Origin: Desulfobulbaceae bacterium | Lineage (GTDB): Bacteria > Desulfobacterota > Desulfobulbia > Desulfobulbales > VMSU01 | Assembly (NCBI GenBank): GCA_015231515.1 | Contig: JADGBM010000010.1 | Span: 1 to 53,611 of the forward strand | DNA length: 53,611 bases | Direction of reading: 5' to 3' | Part shown: positions 16,002 to 42,155 of the stretch, one piece after another | How the letters are laid out: every line of letters begins with the position of its first letter | Numbering within the stretch: position 1 is the stretch's first letter | The notes under the pieces: generated by a model | The model's input: the letters and a program-made list of their open reading frames with translations, nothing else | The model's database searches: none | Told to the model about the DNA's origin: nothing | Program-made: the position numbers and the translations under genes

Positions 16002-16652
16002 TTATTTTAAAAAGTAACGAACCTTTTGACTGTGTGGGTCATGGCAGTCAACACAAAGCATACCGCTGGCAATAATCTTTTCATGCATCGCTTTAGCCAG
16101 CCGCTCTTCAAGGTGGCATTTAAAGCAGATCTTTTCAAGACTTTCGCGTAAAAGGGATAAGTTCTCTGATGAGTGCGGATCATGACAAGCCAGGCAGGAG
16201 CCGACGGAGACCGGGCCATGGATAAATTCTCCCTGGATAAAGTTTTTATGACAGAGGTAACAAATTTCAGTATTTGACGAAAGGAGTTTGTTTTCCGCCT
16301 TAAAGTCGTGGCAACCCCGGCAGTTTTTCTCTTTCCACGGTCGGTGTGCTGAGCCTCCTGTCTCGGTAGTGATTTTGCCGGTATCCCAGTCGCCCGAGGA
16401 AGCTTCATTTATCTTTTGCTCATAATACCTGTTGAAGAGATCATCCATATTTTCTTCACAGAGTTCGTCAATAGAAGGGATGTCTGGGACTCCATCAAAT
16501 ATAGTGGTTAAAAATTTATGCTTTACAAGGGGATCGACCTTGATGCATCCGCCTATAATTAATAGGAAAAAAAGGAGGAGACAGGTGCTGGGGTAAAAAT
16601 GCTTTAATTTTTTGATAGGAACAGATAGCTTTTGCACTTTAATATGAACCAC
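16002..16652 (-). CDS. Pentaheme cytochrome c lipoprotein
   Basis: The protein has 216 residues. A hydrophobic segment (about 23-35) ends in IIGGC with lipidated Cys36. After it comes a conserved-looking FDGVPDIPS segment (53-60), then five CXXCH sites at 111, 131, 153, 176 and 200, with CHDPHS twice. Such lipoproteins sit on the inner or outer membrane facing the periplasm; Ile/Lys after the lipid Cys gives no clear retention signal. It lies between the SPOR cytochrome and its shorter paralogue, so the three probably form one electron path across the periplasm. Confidence 0.9.
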   Translation of the reverse strand: MVHIKVQKLSVPIKKLKHFYPSTCLLLFFLLIIGGCIKVDPLVKHKFLTTIFDGVPDIPSIDELCEENMDDLFNRYYEQKINEASSGDWDTGKITTETGGSAHRPWKEKNCRGCHDFKAENKLLSSNTEICYLCHKNFIQGEFIHGPVSVGSCLACHDPHSSENLSLLRESLEKICFKCHLEERLAKAMHEKIIASGMLCVDCHDPHSQKVRYFLK

Positions 16653-16726: not shown

Positions 16727-19165
16727 CTATTGGCTTACATTTTCATAGTTAATGTATGATTTGCCGTAGTCTTTTTCTTCCATACTGTTATTTACAGGGC
16801 TGCTACGGTCATAGTCCATCTCTCTGTGACATCCAGGAATACATTTCCCACCCGACTGGCCAAGTGTAAAATTGATACTCATAGTCCATGACCCAAAGCT
16901 TGCTCCTGTACGGTTTATAAGTCTAGGTCCATCGCTGGCATGTGGTGTATGACAGGCTTGGCAAGTCCTGCCTTTTCTGGCTATCCCAACATGTGCCAAA
17001 TGAAGGTTCTGGTCACCATTCCTAAATAATGTTGATGTCGACTTTTCAGTAAGAAGATCCTGGTCGTGACATCCAAAACAGAGTTCGTACTGGCCCTTTG
17101 TGTATGGTGCGTAAAACGCTGTAGGATACTGTCCAACCAGAATAGCATCGTAATCTGAGCCATGGGCAGCATGACATCCTGTACAGTTCCCCTTTGCAAC
17201 AGGGGCGTGGATGTACTCTTTATTGTTAAGTTCCTGCTCGATATTTCTGGGGGAGTACGATTCCAAAGATGAATTGTCGCCGTGGCAGCTTAGGCAAAGC
17301 CTCAGGGGATCCATTGGCAGCAGCGCTTTGTATTCAGAAAAATGGGCGAGGTGGCAGGTTGCGCACTGTTTGTTCTCAAGATATAGACCATCATGTTTGA
17401 CCCTGGCCCTTCGTTCTGTTTTCATGATCTCTGTGTGGCAGGTATAACAGAAATCCATGCCGACATCGGGCAGTAGGTTTGGGTGGTCACTACCGTGGAC
17501 AGCGTGGCAAGATTGACAGCCCTGCTCCACAACCACGGGGTGGACATAGGTCGCCTGCTCAAGGCCTCGGGCAATTTCAGAATGGCAACTGTAGCATAGG
17601 TCTTGTGGAGTCTGCCGGAGTAGAGATTCAATCTCAGAAAAATGGGGGCTGTGGCAAAATGTGCACACGCCAAGTCCAACAGGGCCATGCAGCATTTTTT
17701 TGTTTATGAGTGCTTTGTCGTGGCACTCAAAGCAGAGGTCCTGCTGATTTGTTGATGCGACCTTTGCCAGGGATGGAAATTGAGAACTGTGGGGATTATG
17801 GCAGCTTAGGCAATTACCTTCTTCAAAGGGGCTGTGAACGATAGTTCCGATCTTCTCAAACTGGTGGCACTGGCCGCAAAGCTCTTGACCTTCGGTGACT
17901 AGCTTAAAAGAACTGCCATTTTCAGCCGGGTGCAATTGCTGTATTTGCTGATGGCACGCCAGGCACTTGGCTGACTGGGCCGGCATATGGGCGTATTTTT
18001 CTTCAATTATGGTGTCGTGGCAATTTGAGGTCAGGCATTCTGGTGAGGCTGTGAATTTTGACAAATGCTGCTGTGGCATAGTGCCCAGGTTGGAGCCTTT
18101 GGGTTGTTTTGTGCCTAGGAATCTGGCCATGACTAATTCGAGATACTCTTTACTGCCTGGGGCAGGGTCGATTTTTTTTGGTGCTGGCAGTAGTTGAGCG
18201 GGTTTTTCTGTCTGCCCGAGTTGTTGCGGGAGTGACACCTTCTCCGGTTCTTTGTTGTCGATGTTCAGTTCAGGGCTGGTTGTTTCAGGTTGAATCTTTT
18301 CGCTTGCTGGCTGTTGATTTCTTGTTTCGTCATAGGCCTTCGTTGTTGGCTTTCTGGTGGTTTCTTTTGAGTTAATATCTTGAAGATGTATAATACGTTC
18401 TTCTTTATAGTAAGCCTTCATGAGCATAGGTTTGTCGATATAAGGTGTCAGGGTATCAAGAAGTGTTTGAATGGACTGCCTGTTGCGCCCTTTCCCTGCC
18501 CTTACGGTATAAACTGAAGAGATTTTTTCAATGCGGAGATATTCACGGTCTTTGGTTGGTAACTGATTTGAGATGAGTCCATAAAAAGATTTAGCATCTT
18601 TAATATTATGAAAACTGCCCAATTGAATTACATGCCAGAGCGTGTTGTCATCTATCGGGAGGTCATCATTTTGGCTTGTATTGCTTTCGGCTCTTGGTCT
18701 TGTTTGTTCAAGCTGGGCTGGTTCATTGTCAGTCAATAAAGAACTCTGCTGTGGGGTGAGGGTGTTTGCAAGAGTAGCAGCCTGGTCGGAGTTCAATAAT
18801 TGAATGATTCGATCTTCTTTATAGTACGCATGTATGACAGAAGGAGATATCCGGAGTTGAACCAACGACGCGACAACGGAATCTGTTTGTGTCTTTTGAG
18901 GGAACTTGCCGATACGGACAGTGAAATAAGGAGGGATATGTTCTATTCGAAGATCTGGAGTGCTGCTGGCTGGTAACTCTTTAGAAAGTTTTGTGTATGA
19001 GGTCTCAGCGTCTTTTTCGGAAGCAAAACTGCCGACTTGCACCGTGTACCAAAGTTTAAGTGCAGAATTCTCGTTAATCCCAGGAGTCAAAACAGTCTCC
19101 GCATGTGCAGGATTGGATATGGTCAGGAATAGAATGATAAATATTCTGATTATATTTTTATACAT
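16727..19165 (-). CDS. Twin-SPOR-domain multiheme cytochrome c, about 15 heme motifs
   Basis: This 812-residue precursor has a signal peptide (about 1-22, ending AHA). Two SPOR-like repeats, LWYTVQVGSF (about 34-115) and LWHVIQLGSF (about 181-265), each end in YYKE(D/E)RIIxL. A low-complexity linker (about 265-345) follows. The heme part has 13 CXXCH sites, one CX4CH (CLTSNCH) at its start and one CX3CH (CIPGCH) near the end. SPOR domains bind glycan strands stripped of peptides, so the protein should be held on peptidoglycan with a heme chain attached (inference). It is the first gene of the operon leading to the lipoprotein and PilZ genes. I know no named homologue with this fusion. Confidence 0.9.
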   Translation of the reverse strand: MYKNIIRIFIILFLTISNPAHAETVLTPGINENSALKLWYTVQVGSFASEKDAETSYTKLSKELPASSTPDLRIEHIPPYFTVRIGKFPQKTQTDSVVASLVQLRISPSVIHAYYKEDRIIQLLNSDQAATLANTLTPQQSSLLTDNEPAQLEQTRPRAESNTSQNDDLPIDDNTLWHVIQLGSFHNIKDAKSFYGLISNQLPTKDREYLRIEKISSVYTVRAGKGRNRQSIQTLLDTLTPYIDKPMLMKAYYKEERIIHLQDINSKETTRKPTTKAYDETRNQQPASEKIQPETTSPELNIDNKEPEKVSLPQQLGQTEKPAQLLPAPKKIDPAPGSKEYLELVMARFLGTKQPKGSNLGTMPQQHLSKFTASPECLTSNCHDTIIEEKYAHMPAQSAKCLACHQQIQQLHPAENGSSFKLVTEGQELCGQCHQFEKIGTIVHSPFEEGNCLSCHNPHSSQFPSLAKVASTNQQDLCFECHDKALINKKMLHGPVGLGVCTFCHSPHFSEIESLLRQTPQDLCYSCHSEIARGLEQATYVHPVVVEQGCQSCHAVHGSDHPNLLPDVGMDFCYTCHTEIMKTERRARVKHDGLYLENKQCATCHLAHFSEYKALLPMDPLRLCLSCHGDNSSLESYSPRNIEQELNNKEYIHAPVAKGNCTGCHAAHGSDYDAILVGQYPTAFYAPYTKGQYELCFGCHDQDLLTEKSTSTLFRNGDQNLHLAHVGIARKGRTCQACHTPHASDGPRLINRTGASFGSWTMSINFTLGQSGGKCIPGCHREMDYDRSSPVNNSMEEKDYGKSYINYENVSQ

Positions 19166-22703: not shown

Positions 22704-24836
22704 TCAGGGTTTAGTCTCGTTGTGATGTTTCCATATTTTCAGTAGGGCAAGTTCAAACTCTCTGGTAAATTGTTTGGCGTCACAGATGGGGGAGCTAAGC
22801 ATCCGATTCCTCATGGTACTGCGCAGCTTTTTAAGCTCTTCTATGTTTGCAGCTAGTGCTCGTGCCTTTTCAATATAGTCATCCTTGCTTTCCGCTATAT
22901 AGTTTTCTAGGTCGATCCTGGTCATGAGGCTTGCTCCCATTCGTGTGGCGTAACGATCTCCTTTTAGAGTTATAACCGGCACTCCCATCCACAAGCTGTG
23001 ACACGTTATTGTATGACCATTATGGGGAAAGGGATCAAGGGCAATATCAACTCTATTATGCGTGGCGAGGTACTCTTTCATTGGCAGGTTGCTCACCATT
23101 TCAATGCGGCTGGCAGGAACGCCATGAGAGTTAAAGATATTCAGGAAGTGAGCTTGGATGTGCCTATCAGTAAAGGCCTTGCTGACCCATAAAAGTTTTG
23201 AGTTTGGGACGGCAATAACTATTTTTGCCCAAACCTCAAGTACCTCCTCTGTTATTTTTATAATATTATTAAACGACCCAAAGGTTATTTGTCCAGAAGC
23301 GAGGGCGGGCAGGGGGGCAACGTCAGGGCACTCTGCCGGAGGAAGATAGCAGAAGAAACCGTGAGGCAGGTATACCAGAGACTCTGAATAATAAAGTTCT
23401 GAGCCTCCGGGGTTGGCTATCTGGTCGGTGAGGCGATAATCGATCACCGGCAGCCCGGTTGTGTTTACATAACCCAGCCAACTGGCCTGGAGCGGGGCGG
23501 GCTTTCTTGCCATGACCGGCAGGCGGTTATTGGCCGAGTGGCCAGCCAGGTCAATGAGGATATCAATTTTGTCTGAGCTTATTTTTTCGGCAACTTTTTC
23601 GTCGTCGACTCCCCGGGTGGAGTACCAGCTGTCAGAAAGTTGCATTATCTCGAGAGTAATTGCATCATGGTTTGAGCTGCCCATTTCTGCGTAACAGAAT
23701 ATTTTGAAACCTGATTCTGAGATATTTTGCAGTAATGGAAGTATGAAAAGGCCAACCGGATGTTGCCTGAAGTCAGGTGACATAAAGCCGATGTTTAAGA
23801 CCTCACCAGCTTTTTTTGGGCCTGTTTGAAGGTTGGTTTTTAGGTTTTTACCTTCTGCCGATTTTGTAAAACGCACCCACCACTCTTTGGCAGCCTCAAA
23901 AAGATCGTTGTTATTCAGTGAAGGGTCGTAGTTACAATTAAAAAGAAGATCGCTATAGGCATAGTGCGAATCCGTTTTACGAGCGCATAGATTTTGAAGG
24001 CATCGGATTGATTCTTTGTACAGACCATGCTGACCGTAAGTCCAGGCAAGGTTGACATTTGCCTCCTCGTAGTCAGGCTGAGAGGTGACAGCTTGTTGGT
24101 ACCAGTTGATGGCCTCGTGGAATTTGCCCTGTCGCACAAGGACATTGCCAATATTGTTTTGTAGCTCCGGACGTTCGGGATGGTACTCAAGCGCTTTTTT
24201 GTACTGATCAATGGCTTCATCGAGCCTGCCAAGCTCTTGCAGGGAATAGCCGACGTTGTTGCGGGCCTGGAGGTTGCCTGGTTCTGATTTCAGTACATGG
24301 TTGAAGCAGTTGATCGCTTCCTCGTGATCTGCTAACTGATTATATGTGCGTCCTAGTCTGTTTCGAGCTTCATGCATGTTGGGTTTCAACTGTAGAGTTT
24401 TTTTGAAATAACCCTCTGCCTCAACATAATCATGGTTTTCAAATAAGGTGTTCGCCAGGTTAAAGAGCGCTTCAATAAAGTCTGGTTTAATCTGTAGGGC
24501 TTTTTTGTAGGCGGTAATGGCTTGACTGTATTTCTTTTGGCCTTTATAGGCGGAACCGAGGTTTGTAAGAAATGCAGGATCTGTTTTGATGGCAAGAGCC
24601 TTCTGGGCCAGCCTTTCAGCTTTATGAAAGTCGCCATTTTGTTGGGCGATAAGGCCTAAAAGATTCAAAGAGTCGGTATGGTTCGGTTTAGCCTGGAGGA
24701 TCGTATTGTAAACAGTTGAGGCGTCTTCAAAGTTTCCGGCTTGATGGTGGGCCAGACCGTCGTGAAATAGTTCAGAAATATTGAATGGCTGCTTTTTGAA
24801 GGGCTTCGATCTATTTTTTTTTAGTTTTCGAGACAT
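22704..24836 (-). CDS. TPR-containing O-linked N-acetylglucosamine transferase-like protein (GT41)
   Basis: The protein has 710 residues. About eight TPR units (residues 20-310, AEAYxNLGxxxxxxGxxxEAIxxYxxAL type) precede a GT41 catalytic region (about 345-700). The latter has NIGFMSPDFRQHPVG, DILIDLAGHSANNR, SWLGYVNTTGL, FGSFNN and LDPFPHNGHTITCHSLWMGVPV. The order and motifs are those of SPINDLY/OGT enzymes that put a sugar on Ser/Thr of proteins. It lies 26 bases downstream of a 12-heme secreted cytochrome gene on the same strand. No signal peptide is visible, so it should act in the cytoplasm before export. The donor sugar is not predictable. Confidence 0.92.
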   Translation of the reverse strand: MSRKLKKNRSKPFKKQPFNISELFHDGLAHHQAGNFEDASTVYNTILQAKPNHTDSLNLLGLIAQQNGDFHKAERLAQKALAIKTDPAFLTNLGSAYKGQKKYSQAITAYKKALQIKPDFIEALFNLANTLFENHDYVEAEGYFKKTLQLKPNMHEARNRLGRTYNQLADHEEAINCFNHVLKSEPGNLQARNNVGYSLQELGRLDEAIDQYKKALEYHPERPELQNNIGNVLVRQGKFHEAINWYQQAVTSQPDYEEANVNLAWTYGQHGLYKESIRCLQNLCARKTDSHYAYSDLLFNCNYDPSLNNNDLFEAAKEWWVRFTKSAEGKNLKTNLQTGPKKAGEVLNIGFMSPDFRQHPVGLFILPLLQNISESGFKIFCYAEMGSSNHDAITLEIMQLSDSWYSTRGVDDEKVAEKISSDKIDILIDLAGHSANNRLPVMARKPAPLQASWLGYVNTTGLPVIDYRLTDQIANPGGSELYYSESLVYLPHGFFCYLPPAECPDVAPLPALASGQITFGSFNNIIKITEEVLEVWAKIVIAVPNSKLLWVSKAFTDRHIQAHFLNIFNSHGVPASRIEMVSNLPMKEYLATHNRVDIALDPFPHNGHTITCHSLWMGVPVITLKGDRYATRMGASLMTRIDLENYIAESKDDYIEKARALAANIEELKKLRSTMRNRMLSSPICDAKQFTREFELALLKIWKHHNETKP

Positions 24837-24862: not shown

Positions 24863-25720
24863 CTAGGGCCTGCGTTGTTGCTTAATGGACAGGTCGATCT
24901 TATTAAGTTTTAAAGAATGAGCTATTCCATGACATGTTCCACAAGTTGGAAAGCCCTTAAGCATAGCTTCTGGGTGCGGCTGGGGGTGGCATTTTCTGCA
25001 CGTTGGAACTCTTTTGTGCTCCTTCTCGTGGCATTCAGCGCAGGGCACTTGTCGATGTTTGGCCCGACTCTCGGCTAATTGCTGGTAGACTTCAGTGTGG
25101 CACGAGCCGCAAAACTCAGAGGAGGTATTGTTCTCATAGTTGACAATCAGCGGCATGTGGGCTTGATGGCAACTCAAACAGTCTTCGTTGGTCATTGTGT
25201 CAAGATGGGATGCATGACAGGCAAAACATTCCGGAATATATCCATGTCGGATATGGCAGGCCGTGCAGTCCAATGTTGTGTGGATGCTCGGATTTTTCTG
25301 TAGTTGTTCTATTTGATCGGTATGACACGTGGTACACTGAAAGGTTATGTCACGAGTGAGTCTGATGTCAAGCGGAGTATGCGGATTGACATGGCATTGT
25401 GAGCAGTTTGTCAGGTCAAAATGTGGTGAGTCGGTGTGGCATTTGCTGCAGCGGGGTATTATCTCTCTGTTCATGGGTGGATGACCATCGTGACAGTCAA
25501 TGCAACTGATTTTTGTACTGTGGGCTGCGCCATTTCGTAAGTTTAATGATACTATGTGCGGGTGGCATTTTTTGCAATCGTCATGTAAAAGCTGTGAGCT
25601 AGGGACAGCAGGTTTGGTTGGGATATTAATGACAGTCTGATCAGCAACAGTGCTTCCGCTGGCAACAGGGGGAATTAAGGCTGTGAGACTGAGCAGAAAA
25701 ATTAGTGCGTATATGTACAT
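24863..25720 (-). CDS. Secreted dodecaheme cytochrome c
   Basis: This 285-residue precursor has a signal peptide (about 1-21). Twelve CXXCH sites are at residues 49, 73, 91, 106, 129, 152, 165, 181, 204, 227, 241 and 260, roughly one heme per 19 residues, a very dense packing. Extra histidines between the motifs can be distal ligands. It probably acts as a periplasmic electron relay. It is transcribed with the OGT-like gene just downstream. Confidence 0.92.
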   Translation of the reverse strand: MYIYALIFLLSLTALIPPVASGSTVADQTVINIPTKPAVPSSQLLHDDCKKCHPHIVSLNLRNGAAHSTKISCIDCHDGHPPMNREIIPRCSKCHTDSPHFDLTNCSQCHVNPHTPLDIRLTRDITFQCTTCHTDQIEQLQKNPSIHTTLDCTACHIRHGYIPECFACHASHLDTMTNEDCLSCHQAHMPLIVNYENNTSSEFCGSCHTEVYQQLAESRAKHRQVPCAECHEKEHKRVPTCRKCHPQPHPEAMLKGFPTCGTCHGIAHSLKLNKIDLSIKQQRRP

Positions 25721-26044
25721 GATACAAATATCATTGATTGTTTAATTGAACGATTTGTTTTGATTTCTTTGAAATCACAGTAATTCATTGCAATAGTTCT
25801 TTCCTTTGATTTCGGGCTGCTGCGGGTAGCATTCTAAGAAATCAGATTGACAGATAAACATCTTAATGTCAAGAATGTGTAGTTTGTGAAAAATACAGAT
25901 TGGATTATAAGCACTCAGTCAGACTTTATTATAGCTCTCCGCTGAAAACAGTGAGTAGTAAATTAAAACTCAAGATAATTTTTTGTAATTTACACATAAC
26001 ATAGATTGAGTTCAGTATTAACAAGGAAAACGAAGTTTACTAAA
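25721..26044. other. Divergent promoter region
   Basis: This AT-rich gap of about 320 bases lies between the divergent dodecaheme cytochrome and MORN lipoprotein genes and must carry both promoters. I find no clear -24/-12 element, riboswitch or repeat. Confidence 0.4.
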
Positions 26045-27019
26045 ATGAAAATGATTATGTTAGTAGCCGTCTGTTTAACGGTTTGTTTATCAAGTTGTGC
26101 TGGCCCGAAACAACCCACTTTTATTCCCTTACCCGACCATATTGAACTGAGTCAAGGCGAATGCACAAAGGGGAGTTGTGTTGATGGTCATGGAACAATT
26201 ACATTTAGCGATGGGTCTTATTACGAAGGGGCCTTTTCTCGGGGCGTGCGAAATGGCCAAGGGACATTGGTTTTGGCTGCTGGAGGTTCATTTTCTGGAT
26301 CTTTCCGGAGGGGAGTGTACAGTGGTGGTGGAGAGGTTACTCTTGGTGATGGGACAGTTGGTGTATGCAAAATAAATTCTAATTGTTTTGATGGGCAAGG
26401 TGAGTTTATTGCTGAAAATGGCCAAGTGTTTTCAGGAAGTTATAGGAACGGGATGCTTAATGGCCGTGGAAATACAACGCTGCCAGATGGCCGTGAGTTC
26501 AAAGGTGTTTTTATCAATAATCTTCTTGAGGGTAGGGGGCGAATGACTACCGAAAGCGGCGCTTCCTACTTGGGTGATTTCAGGAAAGGAAAGCTTGATG
26601 GTCAAGTGACAATTCTTTTTTCAACCGGAAGTCGATTTGAGGGGATTTTTGAGGAAGGGGAGTATGTTAAGAATGGTGTGTTAACGTTTCCGAATCGAGT
26701 AACTGGAAAATGTATTAGAGGTAATTGTATTGAGGGTACAGGGTCACTTGCACTTGATGATGGCTCTTCCTATGAGGGGCAGTTTCTTAACGGTCTCCGC
26801 CATGGAAAAGGTGTATCTATAACTTCAGGTGGAGCAGTTTATACAGGCAATTATTTGAACGGTAAAAGGCATGGGGTTGGAACATATGTTTTTCCGTCCG
26901 GCATTATTTATATTGGTCAGTATAAAAATGGTAAACGGCATGGGCCTGGTGTGTACAAATTTGCTAACGGGAAAAGTCATCGAGTTTATTATGAAGATGG
27001 TGAATTGAAAAAAGAGTGA
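26045..27019 (+). CDS. MORN-repeat lipoprotein
   Basis: This protein of about 324 residues has a lipoprotein signal (MKMIMLVAV...LSSC) and about nine MORN repeats (YxGxFxNGxxxGxGxxxxxxG). Three variant repeats with a Cys pair interrupt them (CTKGSCVDGHG, CKINSNCFDGQG, CIRGNCIEGTG). A TTG 39 bases upstream would lengthen the frame, but the lipoprotein signal fits the ATG at 26045, the first of two close ATGs. MORN proteins serve as membrane or lipid scaffolds; the function here is unknown. It ends at a bidirectional terminator shared with the OmcE-like gene. Confidence 0.85.
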   Translation: MKMIMLVAVCLTVCLSSCAGPKQPTFIPLPDHIELSQGECTKGSCVDGHGTITFSDGSYYEGAFSRGVRNGQGTLVLAAGGSFSGSFRRGVYSGGGEVTLGDGTVGVCKINSNCFDGQGEFIAENGQVFSGSYRNGMLNGRGNTTLPDGREFKGVFINNLLEGRGRMTTESGASYLGDFRKGKLDGQVTILFSTGSRFEGIFEEGEYVKNGVLTFPNRVTGKCIRGNCIEGTGSLALDDGSSYEGQFLNGLRHGKGVSITSGGAVYTGNYLNGKRHGVGTYVFPSGIIYIGQYKNGKRHGPGVYKFANGKSHRVYYEDGELKKE

Positions 27020-27124: not shown

Positions 27125-27943
27125 TTACTTAACATGGCAAGAAAGACAGAATACTGATCCTGCGTTTGTAATCCAGATGAAACTCTCATTCGCAGCTGAT
27201 TGAGTGTTGTGAACGTCATGACAAGCGTTACATTCCATTGTGTCACCACCGGTCAAAACTGATTCGATGGAGATTCCACCAACAACGCCACCAAAAGTAT
27301 TAGTTTTTTCAGCAATTTCTGGATCACCTTGCCTAACTTGATCCCAACTCATACCAACTGGATGATGGTTGCTAAGATCAACTATGCCACCGGAACCAAA
27401 ACCAGTAGCTAAACCGGCGAGAGTGTCACCTTGACCGCTAGCGCCGTAGACACCGGCCTGGCTAGGAGACTTTCCTGTACCTGCTGTATTAACGGTGAAG
27501 TCTGGGTTGAATTCTGAATAGGCACCCATAGCGGTGCTCCCATCATGACAGCTGAGACATAGAAGAGTAACACCACCAATAGCAACATCACCATTCATCA
27601 GATGCCGGCTTGAAGAGTCATTGTTAAGCTGACCTTCAGTGCCCATGTTTGTACCATTGTTATAGGCAATGAATTGAGTGTTGTCATCAGCGATACCACG
27701 GTTCCATAATGGGCTATAAGAAAGAGTGTTGCCTTGTACGCCTTCAGCAGTTGAACCAGCTCTTACGGTGTTATGTGGATGGTGACAGAAAATACAAATA
27801 CGTGAGTCGCCGTTACCAAGACCTGCACTTGCTCCTGTTGCTGAAAGATCATGTTTTGAATTAACAATTGTTCCAGCAAAAGCAGCAGAGGCGGTAAGGG
27901 ATACAACACCAAGGGCCAATCCGATTAACATTGTTTTTTTCAT
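27125..27943 (-). CDS. OmcE-like secreted tetraheme cytochrome c
   Basis: The protein has 272 residues from the ATG with a strong AGGAG site; an upstream in-frame extension lacks such a site and would bury the signal peptide. The signal peptide (1-23) ends SAAFAG. Four CXXCH sites are at 50, 129, 238 and 266. Landmark segments are NSKHDLSATG, CIFCHHPHN, SPLWNRG, CLSCHDGS, NHHPVGMSW, CNACHDVHN and a final CLSCHVK. This order is that of the OmcE family, whose members polymerise into extracellular heme filaments. It is transcribed away from the NHL/barrel/PPIase cluster. Filament formation here is inference. Confidence 0.85.
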   Translation of the reverse strand: MKKTMLIGLALGVVSLTASAAFAGTIVNSKHDLSATGASAGLGNGDSRICIFCHHPHNTVRAGSTAEGVQGNTLSYSPLWNRGIADDNTQFIAYNNGTNMGTEGQLNNDSSSRHLMNGDVAIGGVTLLCLSCHDGSTAMGAYSEFNPDFTVNTAGTGKSPSQAGVYGASGQGDTLAGLATGFGSGGIVDLSNHHPVGMSWDQVRQGDPEIAEKTNTFGGVVGGISIESVLTGGDTMECNACHDVHNTQSAANESFIWITNAGSVFCLSCHVK

Positions 27944-28789
27944 TTTTTTTCTCCTGTGATTTAGTTTGTTGTTGAAAAAAATAATTGCGATTTGTTTTTT
28001 TATAAAAATTGTTGAAATAAACATTTGCCATGTGCCTTGTTTCTGATGCATCGCTCATGCCAATAAAAATTTATTACCTTAAATATTTTATTGTTTTTTG
28101 TGATTAGGATGTTTTTTGTCGATTTCATTGTAGTTATTTAAATTATTTTTTTATGACTTTTGTTGAGGGATCTTTTTTTAAAATGGCTTTTGGCGCAAAA
28201 ATTCCCCAGTTATTTGATTTATACACCCTTATGTGGGGATTTCACCCACTTTTTTGGGTATGTCGTAAAAATAAGCTTTTTGCAACTGTCTCTTGGTTTC
28301 TTGATTATTTGCAAAAGCCAAATAGCTGGGGTATTATAACCGTAATTGTTACTATATAATATGGTGTGTTGTTTTGCCATTGTTTGGGGTTTCATGTTTA
28401 ATGGACAAGGTTTTTTGCTGAAAAACTTCGAAGAGGTCAAACATCTTGACTTTGTAGGGGGCAGATTAAACAATAATGCTTGAGCCTCTTGCAAAGTGAG
28501 ATAATGTTACCATATTGTATCTACACACGGGATTATTTTCGCGGGCAGTCAACAGCGAAGCAGTGTCTGGGAATTCGAGCGCTTTCTGGAGCGGAGTTGG
28601 AGTTTATTCCCCTGTTGTTGAGGATGCTAGCTTCCCGATAAAAACGCTCGGGAGTGACGGTCTTTTTGCAAGAAGCTCGTTGATTGCAGTTTTATTGTTC
28701 AGATCTAAGATCTAGGCTTTTTTCTGTTGCCTTTTTTGTTTGTCAACTGCGCAATAACTAATTTTAAATTTTTGTTTTGGAGTTAAACG
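27944..28789. other. Long divergent intergenic region, about 850 bases
   Basis: It separates the OmcE-like gene from the NHL cluster. The left half is very AT-rich and the right half (about 28540-28690) is more mixed, with several small hairpins. Short frames on both strands show no family resemblance, no good ribosome site and no conserved composition. It could hold long leaders, regulators' sites or a small RNA. I cannot assign any. Confidence 0.45.
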
Positions 28790-29977
28790 ATGATATCAAA
28801 CAGTATGGTTAAGTTTGTCCGTGATAAAAGGTTGATCTATTTAATGGTAAGTTTTTTTGCGGTGATTTTCTTCGGTGGTTGTGTAACAACAGAAAACGCT
28901 GCAGTTGGAACAGGTGAACCTGTCTTTTTTCCTCCTCCGCCTGATGTTCCTCGATTTCAATTTTTGACATCGTTTAGCGGGACGGGTGATTTTACTGAAA
29001 AAAAATCTGGCCTCGATGAGTTCCTTGGAGGTTCGCAGACTACATATAAATTTAAGAGACCCTACGGTATCACTGTAAGTAAAGGCTCGATGTACGTTAC
29101 GGATACCTTGACATCTGTCTGGAGGTTTAATTTTAAAAATAAAAAAATTCATAAGTTGCAGGGAGATAAAGGGCTTGGCAAGATTGTGCGGGCTCAGAAC
29201 GTCGCCGCAGATGATAATGGTAATTTATTTGTTGCTGATCCTGACCGTAAAATGGTGCTTCAATACGATAAAAATGATCTTTACGTCAGGGGATTTACTG
29301 ATCCTGCTGGTTGGAAGCCCGTTGATTTGGCAACCTTTGACGGTCAGCTTTTTGTTTGTGACGCTACTCACGCTAAAGGGGGGATAAAAGTTTTTGATAT
29401 TGAGAGTGGCGAAATGATTCAGACGATTGGTGATAGTGGACCTCCTAAAGATCGTCTTGGTATTGCTACTGGGATAGCCATGGATAAAGATGGTTATTTA
29501 TATGTTACAGATGCAGGTAACTTTCAGATAAAAAAATATGACCGTGATGGGCATTTTAGAGGTTTTTTAGGGAAACCGGGTAATAGCCCTGGCCATATTG
29601 GTCGTCCTAAAGGAATAGCAGTTGATCGGGAAGGCAAAATTTTTGAAGTAGATGCTGCTTTTGATACCGTACAGGTGTTTTCGCCTAATGGCTTCGTTCT
29701 CGGTTTACTTGGGGGGCCTGGCAGCGCGCCTGGCACCTTAACACTGCCGGCAGGCGTCCATATCGACTACGATAACATTGATTACTTCAAAAAGTACGCG
29801 GCGCCGGGGTTTACTCTTGAATATCTTGTTTTTGTGACCAGCCAGTTTCATAACACCAATGGTATCAGTGTTTATGGTTATGGGAAAATGGAAGGTGAAC
29901 AATACCTTGATTTTGAAGAGTTGAAAAAGGAGAAAGAGGATCTTTTGAAAAAAGCGGCAGAAGAGGCAAATAAATAG
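28790..29977 (+). CDS. NHL-repeat six-bladed beta-propeller lipoprotein
   Basis: The protein has 395 residues. A lipobox FFGGC places the lipid on Cys31. A Pro-rich FFPPPPDVPRFQFL start of the mature protein is shared in form with the second propeller gene downstream. NHL-type blades follow from about 85 to 350 (PYGITVSKGSMYVTD, GIAMDKDGYLYVTDAGN, GIAVDREGKIFEVDAAF). The C-terminus is a charged helix (EELKKEKEDLLKKAAEE). Propellers of this kind accompany extracellular cytochrome loci. It is the first gene of a plus-strand cluster. Confidence 0.88.
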   Translation: MISNSMVKFVRDKRLIYLMVSFFAVIFFGGCVTTENAAVGTGEPVFFPPPPDVPRFQFLTSFSGTGDFTEKKSGLDEFLGGSQTTYKFKRPYGITVSKGSMYVTDTLTSVWRFNFKNKKIHKLQGDKGLGKIVRAQNVAADDNGNLFVADPDRKMVLQYDKNDLYVRGFTDPAGWKPVDLATFDGQLFVCDATHAKGGIKVFDIESGEMIQTIGDSGPPKDRLGIATGIAMDKDGYLYVTDAGNFQIKKYDRDGHFRGFLGKPGNSPGHIGRPKGIAVDREGKIFEVDAAFDTVQVFSPNGFVLGLLGGPGSAPGTLTLPAGVHIDYDNIDYFKKYAAPGFTLEYLVFVTSQFHNTNGISVYGYGKMEGEQYLDFEELKKEKEDLLKKAAEEANK

Positions 29978-30016
29978 TTACAGTTAGGAATAACTGAGAA
30001 ATATTAGCCGCCTCTT

Positions 30017-32350
30017 ATGAAGATGAAACTCCTGTTTTTTGCCTTTCTTTTCTGTACGGCTCCTTGGATCGTTTATGGTGCTGCAGTTGATTTTGTGCCG
30101 CGCCTGGTCAGAACGACAGCTCAACTGACGGTTAACAGTCAATACAGATCAGTGACAAACAGATTTGAACGTGATGGTGGGGAGCCTCCCGCCCGAACGA
30201 CAGAGACTATCCAGATGAGTGAGTCCCTTGGCTTTGGCACCAACGGCTATGTGTATCATCCGAATCTCTTTGTCTTCGGGGGGGCACTGTCAGGAATAAA
30301 CGGTTCGTCGAGAAGTCGTGTGAGTACCGAAGACGGAGACCACCTTCCCCCCGCGAAAAACAGGTCTCGAACAGAGGCCTATAACTTTAATGGCGAACTG
30401 CTGAGGAGAAAGCCTCTCAATGCTGAGATGCGTTTTTCTCGAGATGTGCCTTTTGGAAGCGGTGTAACCCATACTGAAATAAGCCGTAATATTATAGCGC
30501 TTCACTATACTAAAAGGCCGCTTGTGAGTGGGCTTGAGTTTGTCCAGAATGAGCGGGCCAGTAGCAACTTTAGTACGCTAGATGACCAGTATCGAGGCAG
30601 TGTGGCATATAGTATACGAAATTTTAGTGTTCAGGGGGGTGGGTTTTATGCTAAAACTAAGTCAAAACAGGAAAATAGTCTGTTTGCGGAAATTTTAAAT
30701 GAGTCAAACGGGCTTTCTTTTGATAATCGATGGATCTATAAAACCTGGAACTTCAAGACCACTGCAGATTGGAAAGAAACAAAAACGGATAACGGCAAAC
30801 AGATAAATACCCATGACGATGATACTGTAGAGAAAAAGGCAGAAAGTAATCTGGTTGAAACTGTGGAGGCTGGTTTACCCTGGAACACTAATATGTTACT
30901 CAACCTCAGAAGGTCGGAGAGGACAAATCACACTTTTGATGGAGGGCAAACCGTGATGTCACGAACTGTTGGTGAATCTGCTGCGGTAAACCTGACTCAA
31001 AAGGTTTTTGACAGCCTCTCGTCACGGTTTAGTTCGACGTACTCAAACTCGCAATCGGGCTCAGGTTCGAACCAATCAAAAAACTTTTATCTCGGTACAA
31101 ATTATATCAAGCGGCTGCGAACCGGCGGGGTTTCAGCTGGGGTTTCCCAGGAGTTGACCTATATGGACAGAGCGGGATCGGTGGAGAGTAACTACACAAG
31201 CACTCCCACGGTTGCTGGTGGCAGCTTTATCCTGACACAACAAGACATTGACTCATCTTTTGGCGCAATAAATATTACCATTGATATAGCCGGCATAGAG
31301 TTCTCCTTAACCGAAGGTGTGCATTGGACAAAGGGAGCTGTGAGTAATAACAGTGTGGAGGTTGAACTCGCAGGAGGAACAGTAGACTTGGTCTCCTATA
31401 TCGATGACCGGGATGGGGGTGGGGATGGTACAGGACCACATATCTATAAAGCAATCTTCAGATCCAGAGACTTGGATTATGTTCTGGAAACCAGCCAGCA
31501 GACCGTGTATACCGGTCTCACCATTTTGAATGGCCTGGTAACGAGTCAGTACACCCACAAGCAGACCGCCCAGGAGATAAGTGACGGTGATCCGGGCTTC
31601 AATTCGGGGTTGGCGCCGATTATCTCCGATGATAAAATTGCTGCTCGGTTGAATTATGGTCCTTTTTCATTGTCTGCTGACTACCAGTTGGTAAAGTCAA
31701 AATATGATGCAGAGAAATGGGAAAAAGCAAAGTCGGGAAACCCGATCTTGTTGAATGAAGTTTGGGAGTATGGTGCTGCTTTCTATAAACAGACCGTTAT
31801 TATCCCCAAGGTCAGTACGGCAGTCAGGTTGAACTACAGTACAGCTTTTTATACCACTGAGCAGTGGGATAACTCCACCGATGCAAGTGTCGAGCTTTCG
31901 GGCGATAAATATTCATTTTCTGCATCGGCCCATTCTGCCATGAGTTTGCCGACCTATAGAGCAACTCTGAGCCATGGCCTGAGGTATGATATCAGGCGTG
32001 GTGACTATGCTAAACTGGTTACAGGTGTCGGTAGTAATCCTGTCAATAGCCAGGACAAGGATGTCTATCAAACTAATTTAAATGTCAGCTGGGCGGTGCC
32101 CTGGACAAAGATCAGTGTAACAGGCTTTGCCGATTATTTGAATGAACGGATTATCGGTGGCAATGAGGAGATCTCCCTGGAATACGGGGCCAGGTCTGGA
32201 TATCAGTGGCAGTTCGGCGCAACGCGGGTAAATCTGTCAGGAGACTACAAATTTAACGAGGATGAGATTAATGATGAGACTGGATATACCAGCGCCACTT
32301 CCACAGAGGAATGGTCGGTTAATCTTAATATGACCAGAAGATTATTCTGA
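30017..32350 (+). CDS. Putative outer-membrane beta-barrel protein
   Basis: The protein has 777 residues with a signal peptide (about 1-21, VYGAA). The body alternates polar and hydrophobic residues in about ten-residue strands with Ser/Thr/Asn/Gly-rich turns, and ends in TRRLF, a C-terminal Phe typical of BAM-assembled barrels. I recognise no sequence motif of MtrB/PioB porins. Size would suit a barrel of 20 or more strands. Lying between a propeller lipoprotein and a chaperone in a cytochrome cluster, it is the candidate outer-membrane passage for the cytochromes (inference). Confidence 0.72.
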   Translation: MKMKLLFFAFLFCTAPWIVYGAAVDFVPRLVRTTAQLTVNSQYRSVTNRFERDGGEPPARTTETIQMSESLGFGTNGYVYHPNLFVFGGALSGINGSSRSRVSTEDGDHLPPAKNRSRTEAYNFNGELLRRKPLNAEMRFSRDVPFGSGVTHTEISRNIIALHYTKRPLVSGLEFVQNERASSNFSTLDDQYRGSVAYSIRNFSVQGGGFYAKTKSKQENSLFAEILNESNGLSFDNRWIYKTWNFKTTADWKETKTDNGKQINTHDDDTVEKKAESNLVETVEAGLPWNTNMLLNLRRSERTNHTFDGGQTVMSRTVGESAAVNLTQKVFDSLSSRFSSTYSNSQSGSGSNQSKNFYLGTNYIKRLRTGGVSAGVSQELTYMDRAGSVESNYTSTPTVAGGSFILTQQDIDSSFGAINITIDIAGIEFSLTEGVHWTKGAVSNNSVEVELAGGTVDLVSYIDDRDGGGDGTGPHIYKAIFRSRDLDYVLETSQQTVYTGLTILNGLVTSQYTHKQTAQEISDGDPGFNSGLAPIISDDKIAARLNYGPFSLSADYQLVKSKYDAEKWEKAKSGNPILLNEVWEYGAAFYKQTVIIPKVSTAVRLNYSTAFYTTEQWDNSTDASVELSGDKYSFSASAHSAMSLPTYRATLSHGLRYDIRRGDYAKLVTGVGSNPVNSQDKDVYQTNLNVSWAVPWTKISVTGFADYLNERIIGGNEEISLEYGARSGYQWQFGATRVNLSGDYKFNEDEINDETGYTSATSTEEWSVNLNMTRRLF

Positions 32351-32387
32351 TTTTTTTTAACAAAAAACGGCACTTTTCGAGGTAACT

Positions 32388-33410
32388 ATGCGTATATTTG
32401 AAAAAAGGTTTTTAGCTTCATCCTTCATTGTTTGCTTGGTGGCAGGGTTGTGTTTTTCTGGGAATCCCAGGGGCGGTACGGCCTTTGCCTCCGAAGATGA
32501 CGTTGATTATTCCATGGGGCACGACGGGGCTGATCAGGTTACTGTTGCTCGAGTCAATGGTGTTGAGATAAAAATGAGCGCCCTTCTGAAAAGAATGAGG
32601 AATCTGGCCACCAAAAGGGCGGGAAGCCAAGAGATTACTCCACTTGTGGCCCAGAAACTTCAAAAGGAAGCTCTAGACACATTGATAACTGAAGAGCTGG
32701 CCTACCTGAAGGCCTTCAGCGTAATTGGTGTAATGCCGCCTTCGGTGATCGACACTGCAGTGGAGAGCCTGAGAGAGAATTATGGCGGCGCCAAAGCCTT
32801 TGAAGACTATCTTGCCCGAGAAGGGGTGAGCCTTGAGGAGTATCGTGTTCAGGTTGAACGGAACCTGGTGGTTCGCAATTTTATCAGGGTAGAGTTCGGT
32901 GATACCGTGACGGTCAGTCAGGAGGAAATTGATGCCGCCTATCCTGCCTATCCGGGCGAAGAGAACCAGTATCTGGCCCAACTGGAAAAAATACAGGTTT
33001 CAGAGCTCAGGCTGTTCCTTGACCCTGAGAGCGAAGCCTCATTAAATACAGCAAAAGAGTTTCGAGAAAAGATCGTTAACAGTTATGAAGGTGACCTTAC
33101 CAAAATTCCCAATGATGGAACCTTTTTCATTAAAGAAAATGTGGCGCTTAATAAGAGTGTGGATAAGGCGCTTTATGATGCAGGTAAAAAACTTGCTGAT
33201 GCTAAAAAAACAAATGGATTGTCTGAACCCGTGGTCTCTGGTGGAGTAGTGAAAATTATTCAGCTGACTGGGTATATGGCTGAAGTGATAAAAAGTGCGG
33301 ATGCTGTGCGCTATGAGATTAAGAAGTCGAAACAGCAAAAATTAGTCAATAAATGGGTTGCTGGGCTTAAAGATGGAGCCGACATCGAAATATTTGATTT
33401 GACACAATGA
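32388..33410 (+). CDS. SurA/PpiC-like periplasmic chaperone or peptidyl-prolyl isomerase
   Basis: The protein has 340 residues with a signal peptide (about 1-34, TAFA). It has a SurA-type N-terminal helical domain (VARVNGVEIKMSALLKRM, EALDTLITEELAYLKA, about 50-180) and a parvulin-like region (about 190-300, ending NGLSEPVVSGGVVKIIQLTGY), then a helical tail. The parvulin part lacks much of the usual active-site pattern, so it may act mainly as a chaperone. A GAGG site precedes the ATG. PPIases are regular members of extracellular cytochrome loci. It may fold the barrel or the cytochromes. Confidence 0.82.
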   Translation: MRIFEKRFLASSFIVCLVAGLCFSGNPRGGTAFASEDDVDYSMGHDGADQVTVARVNGVEIKMSALLKRMRNLATKRAGSQEITPLVAQKLQKEALDTLITEELAYLKAFSVIGVMPPSVIDTAVESLRENYGGAKAFEDYLAREGVSLEEYRVQVERNLVVRNFIRVEFGDTVTVSQEEIDAAYPAYPGEENQYLAQLEKIQVSELRLFLDPESEASLNTAKEFREKIVNSYEGDLTKIPNDGTFFIKENVALNKSVDKALYDAGKKLADAKKTNGLSEPVVSGGVVKIIQLTGYMAEVIKSADAVRYEIKKSKQQKLVNKWVAGLKDGADIEIFDLTQ

Positions 33411-33434
33411 TGTTGGCTGCACGTAAATGAAAGG

Positions 33435-34478
33435 ATGTTTATGAACCTCGCTCGTTTTAATCTGTTCGTATCTCTTTTGTCATTATTGGCATTATGTTCC
33501 TGTGCCCCTACCCAGTGGGACATGCAGATTAACCGCCATAATGGTATGGTCTGGCCGCCGCCGCCCAATCCGGTAAAGGCTGAATATCTTGGTGAGTTGA
33601 CATCGTTTGTTCCGGTGGGAAAATCAGTGGCATCAATTCTTTTTGGAGCTGAAGAGCAAGGACGTATTCAAAAGCCGGTTGCGGTTGCGGTTGGGGCTGA
33701 TGGCCGGATTGCTATTGCGGATGGGCAGCTTCAGGGTGTGCATTTTTTTATACCGCATAAGAAAAAATATCTCCTGTTGAATCTGGCATCAAAAACTTCA
33801 CTTGTCTCACCGGTCGGGGTGGCTTTTGATGATGATTTAACTCTCTATGTTACTGACTCTGTTCTTGCAAAGATTTTTGTCTTTGACCTGGACGGGAAAT
33901 ATGTCGACGAAATTGCTGTTGCAGGTAACGACGCTTTGCAGCGGCCAACGGGAATCACTTTCCATGAACCCAGAAAACTCCTTTATGTGGCGGATACCCT
34001 TGCCAATAAAATTTATTTTTTTGGTGAGAAACGTGAATTTTTAGGAAGTTTTGGCAAACGTGGAGAGAAGAATGCCGAGTTTAATTTCCCAACTCATTTG
34101 TCCACTGATACTGAAGGGCGCATATTAGTAAACGATACTATGAATTTTAGGCTACAGGTTTTTTCTGTTCCAGATAGGTTTGTTACTCTGTTTGGTCATC
34201 ATGGCGACGGGTCGGGAGATTTTGCAATGCCGAAAGGCGTTGCCGCCGACAGATGGGGTGTATTTTATGTTGCCGAGCCTCTTTTTGACTGTCTTCAGGT
34301 ATTTAATATTCATGGGGACTATTTGATGAGCATTGGCAATAAAGGCACGGGGCTGGGTGAGTTCTGGATGCCGTCAGGGATATTTATTGATCGTCAGGAT
34401 AAACTCTATGTCTGTGATACTTACAATAAAAGAGTGCAGATATTTCAATTATATGACCTATCTTCAGGAGGCCTTTAA
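33435..34478 (+). CDS. NHL-repeat six-bladed beta-propeller lipoprotein (second copy)
   Basis: The protein has 347 residues. A lipoprotein signal ends LALCSC with Cys23 the likely lipid site. The mature start WPPPPNPVKAEYLGELTSF echoes that of the first propeller gene. Blades run from about 75 to 340 (GVAFDDDLTLYVTDSV, KLLYVADTLANKIYFF, GVAADRWGVFYVAEP, GIFIDRQDKLYVCDTYNKRVQIF). Its stop overlaps the next ATG by one base (TAATG), so it is translationally coupled to the 12-motif cytochrome. The ATG at 33435 or 33441 may be used. Confidence 0.88.
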   Translation: MFMNLARFNLFVSLLSLLALCSCAPTQWDMQINRHNGMVWPPPPNPVKAEYLGELTSFVPVGKSVASILFGAEEQGRIQKPVAVAVGADGRIAIADGQLQGVHFFIPHKKKYLLLNLASKTSLVSPVGVAFDDDLTLYVTDSVLAKIFVFDLDGKYVDEIAVAGNDALQRPTGITFHEPRKLLYVADTLANKIYFFGEKREFLGSFGKRGEKNAEFNFPTHLSTDTEGRILVNDTMNFRLQVFSVPDRFVTLFGHHGDGSGDFAMPKGVAADRWGVFYVAEPLFDCLQVFNIHGDYLMSIGNKGTGLGEFWMPSGIFIDRQDKLYVCDTYNKRVQIFQLYDLSSGGL

Positions 34479-36271
34479 TGGCGCGAGTAAGCTTTTGGCT
34501 GATACGTTTTATGATTATTCTGCTGGCCTTGTCAGGTGGAGACTCTGAGGCCAGCGTCGTTGATACAAAGCATAATCTCTCCTCCTCCGGGCCGGGAGAA
34601 ATTAGAGCAATTTTAGAGGATCAGGTCTGTATATTTTGTCATACACCTCACAATGCAGCACCAAAAACCCCTTTGTGGAACAGGGCTATTGATGAAGGGG
34701 TCAATTACGTCATTTACGACAGCACTACCTTCAACGCCAAAATCTCACAGCCATCAGGCCCCTCAAGGCTCTGTTTGAGTTGCCATGATGGAACGGTGGG
34801 GTTAGGAGCCCTTTTGAGCAGACCAGAGGGCGTCACCATGACCATGGGGTTGATGGGGCGGCCATCCATGCTAGGTACCGATTTAAGTAATGATCATCCT
34901 TTTTCGTTTTCATATAGTGAAGCATTACCGTTTAACGTCGAGCTGCATGGAACGTTGCCGTCAGAGTTGTTATTCTATAACACTGACGTTGTTCATTGCT
35001 CGACCTGTCATAATCCCCACGACGATACCTATGGTATGTTTCTCAGTGTGAGCAATAAAAACGCGGCCTTGTGCATCCTGTGTCATAATGTTAGCGGCTG
35101 GCAATCTTCTTCCCACGCAACTTCAGGTAAGACATGGAGCAGGGCAGGGAATAACCCATGGCCCTTGAATGCCAGGTTGACCGCTTCCCAGCAGCGCAAT
35201 ACCGTGGCTGAAAACGGCTGCGAAAATTGTCATACACCCCATAATGCCGGTGGCCCCCAACGATTACTGAATTTCTTAGAAGAAGAGAAAAATTGCACCT
35301 TTGCCTGTCATAATGGCAATGTTTCAGACCCAGGAAAAAATATAAGCAGTCAACTTATCCGATCTTCGGCTCATCCGGTCGATATGGCGACGATTGGCAG
35401 TGCAGGAACTCCCCATGATCCTACAGAGGACGTAACCTTTCTGCATAATCACGTGGAATGTCAGGACTGCCACGATCCTCATAGCACTTACGATAACCCC
35501 GCTGTGGCGCCATTTGTTAGTGGCAGTTTGACGAATGTCAAAGGTATTGATCAAGCCGGCAGTGAACAATACCCGGCAGCGTATGAGTATGAAATTTGCT
35601 TTAAATGTCATTCTCATACCAATACGGTGGTCTCCTATGTTAATCGGTATTTGGATGAAAACGATACAAGGCGTGAATTTGCGACCACCAATCCATCCTA
35701 TCACCCGGTCATCGGGGCAGGAGTGAACCTTGATGTGCCCAGTCTGCCCAGTGTCACCTCTCCTGATCAATCGATGGATGAGTATTCATTAATCTACTGT
35801 TCTGATTGTCACTCCGGCGATGATACGGCAAAAATTGGTGGGAATGGTGCTAACGGTCCTCATGGCTCAATATATGCGCCAATTCTTCGGGAACGTTATG
35901 AGCGGGCTGATGGAACCAGTGAAAGTTATCAGTCGTATGCATTGTGCTATAGATGCCATGACCGAACTAATTTGTTGGCCGATCAGAGCTTCAAAAGAAG
36001 AACTTTGGGAACGACAAGCTCTAAAGGCGGGCATAGTGGGCATACTGCCGTTAACGGTGTGTCATGTTCGGTGTGTCATGATCCTCATGGTGTTGTGGAT
36101 AACAGCGCCTCGGGAGATCATACGCATCTTATTAATTTTGACAGTACGGTTGTAAGCCCTGCTTCTGGAGAGATCTATCCACTGTTCGATGATACTGGGA
36201 ACTTTACAGGGTCGTGTGCTCTGATTTGTCATGGTGTGACTCATGGTAGTGCCAGCCATTCGTATCCGTAA
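34478..36271 (+). CDS. Secreted multiheme cytochrome c with OmcE-like N-terminal module, 10 CXXCH plus 2 CX3CH
   Basis: The protein has 597 residues with a signal peptide (about 1-25, SEA). Residues 26-205 repeat the OmcE-like layout (DTKHNLSSSG, CIFCHTPHN, PLWNRA, CLSCHDGT, SNDHPFSFSY, CSTCHNPH, CILCHN). A second part with CXXCH at 248, 328, 374, 441, 490 and 530 follows. CX3CH sites are CTFACH (273-278) and CALICH (580-585). It is coupled by a one-base overlap to the propeller gene. It could be a periplasmic or outer-membrane feeder, cap or base of the filament formed by the tetraheme protein (inference). Confidence 0.88.
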   Translation: MARVSFWLIRFMIILLALSGGDSEASVVDTKHNLSSSGPGEIRAILEDQVCIFCHTPHNAAPKTPLWNRAIDEGVNYVIYDSTTFNAKISQPSGPSRLCLSCHDGTVGLGALLSRPEGVTMTMGLMGRPSMLGTDLSNDHPFSFSYSEALPFNVELHGTLPSELLFYNTDVVHCSTCHNPHDDTYGMFLSVSNKNAALCILCHNVSGWQSSSHATSGKTWSRAGNNPWPLNARLTASQQRNTVAENGCENCHTPHNAGGPQRLLNFLEEEKNCTFACHNGNVSDPGKNISSQLIRSSAHPVDMATIGSAGTPHDPTEDVTFLHNHVECQDCHDPHSTYDNPAVAPFVSGSLTNVKGIDQAGSEQYPAAYEYEICFKCHSHTNTVVSYVNRYLDENDTRREFATTNPSYHPVIGAGVNLDVPSLPSVTSPDQSMDEYSLIYCSDCHSGDDTAKIGGNGANGPHGSIYAPILRERYERADGTSESYQSYALCYRCHDRTNLLADQSFKRRTLGTTSSKGGHSGHTAVNGVSCSVCHDPHGVVDNSASGDHTHLINFDSTVVSPASGEIYPLFDDTGNFTGSCALICHGVTHGSASHSYP

Positions 36272-38702: not shown

Positions 38703-39085
38703 TTAAAAGTCCATCGTTTATGGATGAAAAAATTATAAACAGTAATTACCGTGGTAATAAGAATATTTGCCAGAAGGTACCATACATGCAAGATATCGAC
38801 TAACAAATACATGAAACTGATCACCAGCAGCAGGCTTGTCAGCAACACGGCATTATATCTCCAAAGGCCATGCCAGTAGGAGTTGTTAGCCCCAGTAAAT
38901 GTATAGTGCCGATTGCACGAGTAGCCTGCAAAATTGGCGGCGACAAAAGCAAGAAGTGTGGAGATAAGGTAGTGGAGATTGCAGATATCAGTAAAGAAAT
39001 AGAGCAGGAGAATGCTGAGACCATAGCATCCCCCTCCAATAATCATAAAAGAGATGAGTTCTCTTTGTGTTTGTAATCGTGTCAT
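38699..39085 (-). CDS. GtrA-like membrane protein
   Basis: The 128 residues form four membrane helices and end NFFIHKRWTFK, the GtrA family hallmark. A SYSCNRHYTF-like turn, here GYSCNRHYTFTG, comes after helix two. GtrA proteins move undecaprenyl-phosphate-linked sugars across the inner membrane for glycosylation of polysaccharide. It overlaps the downstream TPR membrane gene and follows the methyltransferase gene by three bases, so the three form one operon. Confidence 0.9.
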   Translation of the reverse strand: MTRLQTQRELISFMIIGGGCYGLSILLLYFFTDICNLHYLISTLLAFVAANFAGYSCNRHYTFTGANNSYWHGLWRYNAVLLTSLLLVISFMYLLVDILHVWYLLANILITTVITVYNFFIHKRWTFK

Positions 39086-39088
39086 TGT

Positions 39089-39754
39089 CTAAAAATTGTT
39101 GATAGCAGTCGGTGGGTGTTTCTGGTCACGCAACGAACCAATGCTGATAAACTCGTTATATTTAAATATGTTCCCGATAAACCGAGGGAACGGGAAGGAA
39201 TAATGCCTTATTTCTTGGAACCCACTGGCCACTGCTACCTCTTGGAGTTTTGTGAAATTCATAAACTCGATATGGGTTTCATCACTGAAATATCCAGCTT
39301 CCTGCGGAGTAATGAGAATCAATTGGCCATTGTCTTTGATTAGAGATTTGTATTGTAAGATGAGCCCGACGGAAGCATCTGTTCCGAGGTGTTCAACGAC
39401 ATGCGAAAGCAGCATTGAATCAAACAGTTTATTCTTGTTGTGTCGGCTTAATGCAAACTCATCTGGAGTATACGCGGTTAAACCTTTGTCATGAGCAATA
39501 CGGATGGACTCTTTGTTGTGATCAATACCAACTCCATGGCCATCCAAATGGGAGAGCATTCTGCCGAGACCACAGCCGATCTCAAGTGTGAAACCTGGTT
39601 TAAGTCGGCGAATGTTCCATCGGTAAGGAGCTTGAACATTGAAAAGCTTTTTCCACCAGCAGGTCTCATGGGTGAGCAGCTTTTTAGTATATGTTTTTGA
39701 GGATGTAGATGGCATTCTTTTAGAAGTCTGGAAATGTTGGGTTTCGTTTCTCAA
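39089..39754 (-). CDS. SAM-dependent methyltransferase
   Basis: This 221-residue class I methyltransferase has motif I LEIGCGLGRML (57-67), the acidic end of strand two in GVGIDHN and a SHVVEHL motif (about 114-120), then LILITPQEAGYF. These UbiE/type-11-like enzymes in glycan clusters methylate sugars or glycosyl acceptors. It is the first gene of the operon with gtrA. The start may be the second Met (residue 14). Confidence 0.85.
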   Translation of the reverse strand: MRNETQHFQTSKRMPSTSSKTYTKKLLTHETCWWKKLFNVQAPYRWNIRRLKPGFTLEIGCGLGRMLSHLDGHGVGIDHNKESIRIAHDKGLTAYTPDEFALSRHNKNKLFDSMLLSHVVEHLGTDASVGLILQYKSLIKDNGQLILITPQEAGYFSDETHIEFMNFTKLQEVAVASGFQEIRHYSFPFPRFIGNIFKYNEFISIGSLRDQKHPPTAINNF

Positions 39755-39796
39755 TTTAGACTACCAAGCTTCGGTCACAATGACGATATTTATTTC

Positions 39797-42133: not shown

Positions 42134-42155
42134 CTTTAGATTGACAGAGTTTTAG

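Follow-up and report, generated by a model that had tools for sequence, protein, structure and literature searches.

In a 53,611-nucleotide stretch of DNA from a Desulfobulbaceae bacterium (the window), the gene of an OmcE-like tetrahaem cytochrome stands divergent from a cluster encoding two NHL propeller lipoproteins, a large outer-membrane barrel, a SurA-like chaperone and a 12-haem cytochrome, CYT12, whose N-terminus is a complete OmcE module. We regard it as about evenly probable that this locus specifies an OmcE-type extracellular cytochrome filament together with an outer-membrane electron conduit that feeds the filament. All these genes lie where a preliminary description of the window had placed them:

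27125..27943, minus strand: OmcE-like tetrahaem c-type cytochrome, 272 aa (match to 7TFS, ligand histidines kept)
28790..29977, plus strand: NHL1, beta-propeller lipoprotein (lipobox recognised by eye; Pfam NHL 3e-13; position conserved)
30017..32350, plus strand: large outer-membrane beta-barrel (AF2 model)
32388..33410, plus strand: SurA-N-type periplasmic chaperone (SurA_N_3 1.2e-7)
33435..34478, plus strand: NHL2, beta-propeller lipoprotein (Pfam NHL 8.8e-25)
34478..36271, plus strand: CYT12, an OmcE module (mature residues ~6-182) followed by eight further haems (profile, AF2 model)

The OmcE-like protein was read from its own ATG, giving 272 aa with four CXXCH sites, the alternative 308-aa frame beginning too early. 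OmcE of Geobacter sulfurreducens (PDB 7TFS) matches it over its full length (E=9e-19; frame residues 38-308 against 7TFS residues 2-232), with the same four haems and all ligand histidines, the loops being longer here (272 vs 232 aa). A solved "putative multiheme cytochrome c" with 16 chains, 9yuq, is matched as well (E=2e-18). The histidines conserved across 83 OmcE-like sequences of many phyla number exactly eight: the four proximal ones of the CXXCH motifs and four candidate distal ligands (H31, H57, H194 and H245), one of the eight at 98% and the others at 100%. These results bear out the designation as an OmcE-like tetrahaem cytochrome, and the sequence indicates that the protein is probably a filament subunit. 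In both OmcE and OmcS, one subunit contributes a histidine ligand to a haem of its neighbour (PMC9473688, PMC12954529); stacked OmcE-like subunits would share their interfacial haem in the same way as OmcE, through the neighbour's histidine.

CYT12 contains 12 haem sites (10 CX2CH and 2 CX3CH), all 12 invariant among 72 CYT12 sequences, as are 16 further histidines, more than 12 bis-His haems need. A profile built from these 72 proteins, with OmcE sequences excluded, retrieved OmcE at E=1.4e-45 over positions 8-210, and profile-profile comparison of the OmcE module with OmcE gave P=3e-65, while multihaem families used as controls gave 1e-9 to 1e-16. The AlphaFold (AF2) model of CYT12 (pLDDT 87.4, pTM 0.86) aligned with OmcE (Foldseek E=1.1e-8; Z 11.2, rmsd 2.9 A, 168 residues). 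The earlier observation that the first 180 residues of the 12-motif cytochrome repeat the OmcE-like layout is thus confirmed by profile and by model. The second part of CYT12 aligned with OmcS in the model, with Z 5.0 and six haems all in order, and likeness to OmcS is a possibility; an OmcS-like hexahaem module was nonetheless rejected, since multihaem control families gave profile signals at least as strong (4e-23, 6e-17, compared with P 1e-15), and mis-relation is easy among CXXCH proteins.

What might an OmcE module be doing at the end of a larger cytochrome? In Geobacter-like genomes, the OmcE-like half and the eight-haem half of CYT12 are two adjacent genes located beside an NHL gene, a classic sign of interacting partners. 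The haem-5 site of CYT12, CENCHTPHNA, is similar to haem site 1 of an OmcE protomer, CIFCHTPHNA, suggesting that the inner face of the module could be satisfied in-chain and its outer face left free for the filament. The sole low-confidence part of the CYT12 model, the stretch after the haem-1 motif, is weakly suggestive too, as it is what would be expected if a partner were needed. We propose, with somewhat less than even confidence, that CYT12 is the dedicated base of OmcE-type nanowires in more than ten phyla, its eight haems linking via the barrel to the periplasm. The initial idea of a filament base or electron feeder is strengthened, with docking presumed. Alternatively, and in our view improbably, the locus could amount to no more than a porin-cytochrome conduit, with CYT12 as the outer terminal reductase, its OmcE module as an old duplicate that makes no filament contact, and the OmcE-like protein as a monomeric outer cytochrome. 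Such conduits are well known, and in a quick tree with low branch support the CYT12 modules and the free OmcE-like proteins form separate groups, the split genes lying closest to the CYT12 modules, which would make the duplication old. This alternative is at odds with the full OmcE-type histidine set that both CYT12 and the OmcE-like protein retain, and with the two genes being kept together in most clusters.

Among genomes of the same order, several families show the arrangement NHL1-barrel-SurA-NHL2-CYT12 with a divergent OmcE-like gene. Conservation of gene order extends over many phyla, and the placement of the NHL2 gene directly 5' of the 12-haem gene is conserved. A scan of GTDB genomes with CYT12 returned more than 560 relatives, the best 80 of which come from Desulfobacterota, Nitrospirota, Planctomycetota, Verrucomicrobiota, Bacteroidota, Calditrichota, KSB1, Acidobacteriota, Proteobacteria and others. 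A cultured relative, Desulforhopalus sp. IMCC35007 (L095), also carries the full set. Gene counts were made in 39 CYT12 loci flanked on each side by 8 kb or more and drawn from more than ten phyla. An NHL gene was found in 38 of the 39, a barrel in 36 and an OmcE-like gene in 34, and all three stand beside CYT12 in 32; a small pentahaem gene is present in 25/39, a ~14-haem gene in 15/39 and a SurA-like gene in 6/39. The homologues of the tetrahaem protein therefore clearly do co-occur with the other cluster genes. At the level of whole genomes, 23 of 146 related genomes carry both CYT12 and the OmcE-like gene, 3 and 2 carry a single one of them, and 118 carry neither (Fisher 2e-21, with hand-assigned presence and kinship ignored); most of the exceptions sit at contig ends. 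Chance clustering is ruled out by the conserved gene sets and this co-occurrence. Counting against the filament-plus-conduit model, one relative (G008) has its OmcE-like gene unlinked to the CYT12 cluster.

The barrel matched no Pfam or NCBIfam family. Its AF2 model (pLDDT 83.3, pTM 0.73) consists of ~30 strands and an inserted domain that spans mature residues ~366-460, which upholds the call of a large outer-membrane barrel, and MtrB (6r2q_B) ranks first among its structural matches (Foldseek E 1.8e-9, Z 17.9), followed by TonB-dependent receptors (Z 16-17). By this narrow margin, the MtrB-like model favours a trans-outer-membrane conduit over dedicated secretion, without proving it. The two NHL propeller lipoproteins were recognised as such by Pfam. 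In the chaperone, Pfam detected the SurA N-terminal domain only and no parvulin/PPIase domain; the SurA half of the "SurA/PpiC-like" label therefore stands, and the PpiC half is unsupported. Likewise, of the propeller and PPIase genes expected as companions of a filament cytochrome, the propellers are widespread, together with the barrel and OmcE-like genes, and the chaperone is infrequent and devoid of a detected PPIase domain.

The preliminary description had envisaged a full secretion and assembly system. Barrel, propellers and chaperone would then serve the folding and export of the OmcE-like cytochrome, along the lines suggested for osc and OmcS, and CYT12 would act as a chaperone-like nucleator, not as a feeder. 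We consider this reading rather unlikely, dedicated secretion being possible and less supported. The barrel is predicted to be very large, every cluster contains an exported cytochrome, and propeller, chaperone and channel are gene kinds in common with osc as described in PMC13194489. By contrast, the chaperone is missing from most clusters, MtrB is the best match of the barrel, and 5-, ~14- and 12-haem partners are conserved with the barrel. A complete secretion system is thus not established, and the conduit-type partners point at least as much to a conduit.

Conserved partners of the set are also encoded elsewhere in the window, so that the extent first given, 27125-36271, holds for the genes listed there and falls short of the whole set. 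These partners (16002-19165) and further genes of note lie upstream of it:

16002..16652, minus strand: pentahaem lipoprotein (HMM E=2.7e-47 against the family preceding the barrel in 43 clusters)
16727..19165, minus strand: two SPOR domains fused to a ~14-haem cytochrome (SPOR 8e-16; C-terminal homology)
22704..24836, minus strand: TPR + GT41 (OGT-like) glycosyltransferase (Glyco_transf_41 8.4e-54)
24863..25720, minus strand: 285-aa multihaem cytochrome (homologues in the equivalent position in L049, L050 and L055)
26006..27019, plus strand: MORN-repeat lipoprotein (MORN 3e-38; same place in L049, L050 and L055)

In the 43 clusters, the pentahaem lipoprotein gene is located directly 5' of the barrel gene, and its product carries an N-terminal "(R/H)YKxLxFFFDGVP"-like motif. 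The copy in the window shows the signature of the family, "..K.L...FDGVP", and a set lacking the pentahaem partner is ruled out. In 30 clusters, a cytochrome of ~450 aa is homologous to the C-terminal part of the SPOR-containing protein (E to 1e-128). SPOR domains bind peptidoglycan, which suggests periplasmic anchoring of the ~14-haem protein; its domain composition makes a periplasmic location probable. Both genes lie 8-12 kb from the coordinates first described, so that the system occupies two separate blocks in the window; in L055, a relative, only ~5 kb separate them from the OmcE-like gene. The 285-aa cytochrome and the MORN lipoprotein are conserved neighbours of the OmcE-like gene within the same family. 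The first part of the window also contains HAMP-type membrane proteins and further multihaem cytochromes, one at 7860-11657 (minus strand) with ~25 CX2-4CH sites in 1265 aa, and two at 12889-13728 and 15049-15939 (both minus strand) with ~seven CXXCH sites each. The same genome has a second region rich in multihaem proteins (G000:C4:14082-36549), which includes a 1012-aa frame full of paired CXXCH. At the other end of the window, a 180-aa frame (52218-52760, plus strand) resembles a REP-associated transposase.

OmcE filaments are glycosylated, and the nearby TPR-GT41 protein may be the modifying enzyme, which makes it a candidate modifier of the OmcE-like protein. A GT41 gene is found at most 7 kb from the OmcE-like gene in 7/25 genomes (5 genera, 2 families), with TPR-GT41 genes at L049:11245+, L050:10985+, L055:2287+, L044:12294+, G008:C1:51558 and G054:C10:29513. 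In G008, it is near the OmcE-like gene although the latter is unlinked to the conduit. TPR-sulfotransferases are encoded beside the OmcE-like gene in two other loci (L045 and L069). In the window, the cluster is flanked by a GtrA/DPMS-type membrane protein, GT2 glycosyltransferases and methyltransferases (38699-43061), and the frames at 20502-22700 (plus strand) and 36291-38702 (minus strand) encode two similar proteins, rich in hydrophobic segments and with TPRs at the C-terminus. TPR and GT2 proteins are also found 3' of omcE in one Geobacter-like genome (L218).

In Geobacter-like genomes, the true omcE is at a locus other than that of the split CYT12, indicating that omcE needs no adjacent CYT12 there, a point against the filament-plus-conduit model. 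Three omcE orthologues (L217, L218 and L223), 51-59% identical, accompany 11-haem and 8-haem cytochromes, whereas the OmcE-like gene of the window accompanies the CYT12-barrel set; an NHL gene, which is part of the set here, also adjoins omcE there, as a lipoprotein gene in L218 and L223. Two ResB/CcsA-like cytochrome-maturation genes lie 5' of these omcE groups, and a ~750-800-aa protein belonging to no known family is encoded 3' of them; a profile comparison of the ~750-aa gene after omcE with the barrel of the window gave no match. The split CYT12 set of L214, L215 and L216 comprises NHL, OmcE-like, 8-haem and 4-haem genes, and adjoins genes resembling an atypical type II secretion or pseudopilus system.

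Returning to the filament-plus-conduit model, periplasmic electrons would pass from the SPOR-anchored ~14-haem cytochrome to the pentahaem lipoprotein, and on to the barrel with CYT12; all three cytochromes are candidates for a multihaem protein threaded through the barrel. The N-terminal OmcE module of CYT12 would serve as the first "subunit", onto which OmcE-like monomers would stack and polymerise. The NHL lipoproteins would scaffold the outer-membrane complex, the SurA-like protein would aid biogenesis of the barrel and the cytochrome, and glycosylation of the OmcE-like protein may fall to the GT41 enzyme.

A 2025 review (PMC12307469) counts among the open questions how cytochrome nanowires are anchored in the membrane and where electrons enter them, and possible tip proteins were not considered in the OmcZ structure paper (PMC9473688). 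If the proposal is correct, CYT12 would fill this gap, both anchoring cytochrome filaments and letting electrons enter them: a wire subunit plus eight haems, usually encoded near a barrel and a wire gene, is a concrete candidate for the anchor. The breadth of the gene set further suggests that OmcE-type wiring is far commoner than in Geobacter alone. OmcE-type filaments, osc companion clusters and conduits beside nanowire-type cytochromes are already known; a search of the literature returned no description of an OmcE-centred set with the CYT12 fusion in more than ten phyla, although one may exist.

The osc (omcS-companion) operon (Shen et al. 2025, via PMC13194489) combines the gene of a filament cytochrome with those of a propeller, a chaperone and channel-type proteins (OscEFG), gene kinds that are also seen here. 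Compared by gene kind only, the present set is distinguished by its OmcE-type subunit, fused 12-haem protein and pentahaem lipoprotein; two NHL lipoproteins correspond to the osc beta-propeller (OscD), and the candidate counterpart of the osc prolyl-isomerase chaperone (OscH) is a protein in which the SurA N-domain alone was detected. A search of the same genome at E<=0.001 returned no OmcS homologue. The OetABI conduit of syntrophic sulfate reducers (PMC10553843) and the SEEP-SRB operon cited in PMC12246660 have a barrel, multihaem cytochromes, a PPIase and a beta-propeller next to nanowire-type cytochromes; by description, they differ from the set here in their OmcS/OmcX-type subunits and 16-26-haem proteins. 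DFE_0448-0465 of Desulfovibrio ferrophilus (PMC8322314, PMC9769857) is similar by description in its multihaem cytochromes, six-bladed propellers, PPIase and pentahaem subunit, and unlike the present set in that a porin is not reported. PCC3/PCC4 (PMC5566968) and the Verrucomicrobia porin-MHC (PMC5615132) were rejected as the same system, their published haem counts not fitting. Finally, MtrCAB and other porin-cytochrome conduits have in common with the locus a large outer-membrane barrel, MtrB being by a narrow margin the closest match of our model, and multihaem partners; in the set described here, no MtrA/MtrC sequence homologues were identified, and a probable filament subunit is included.
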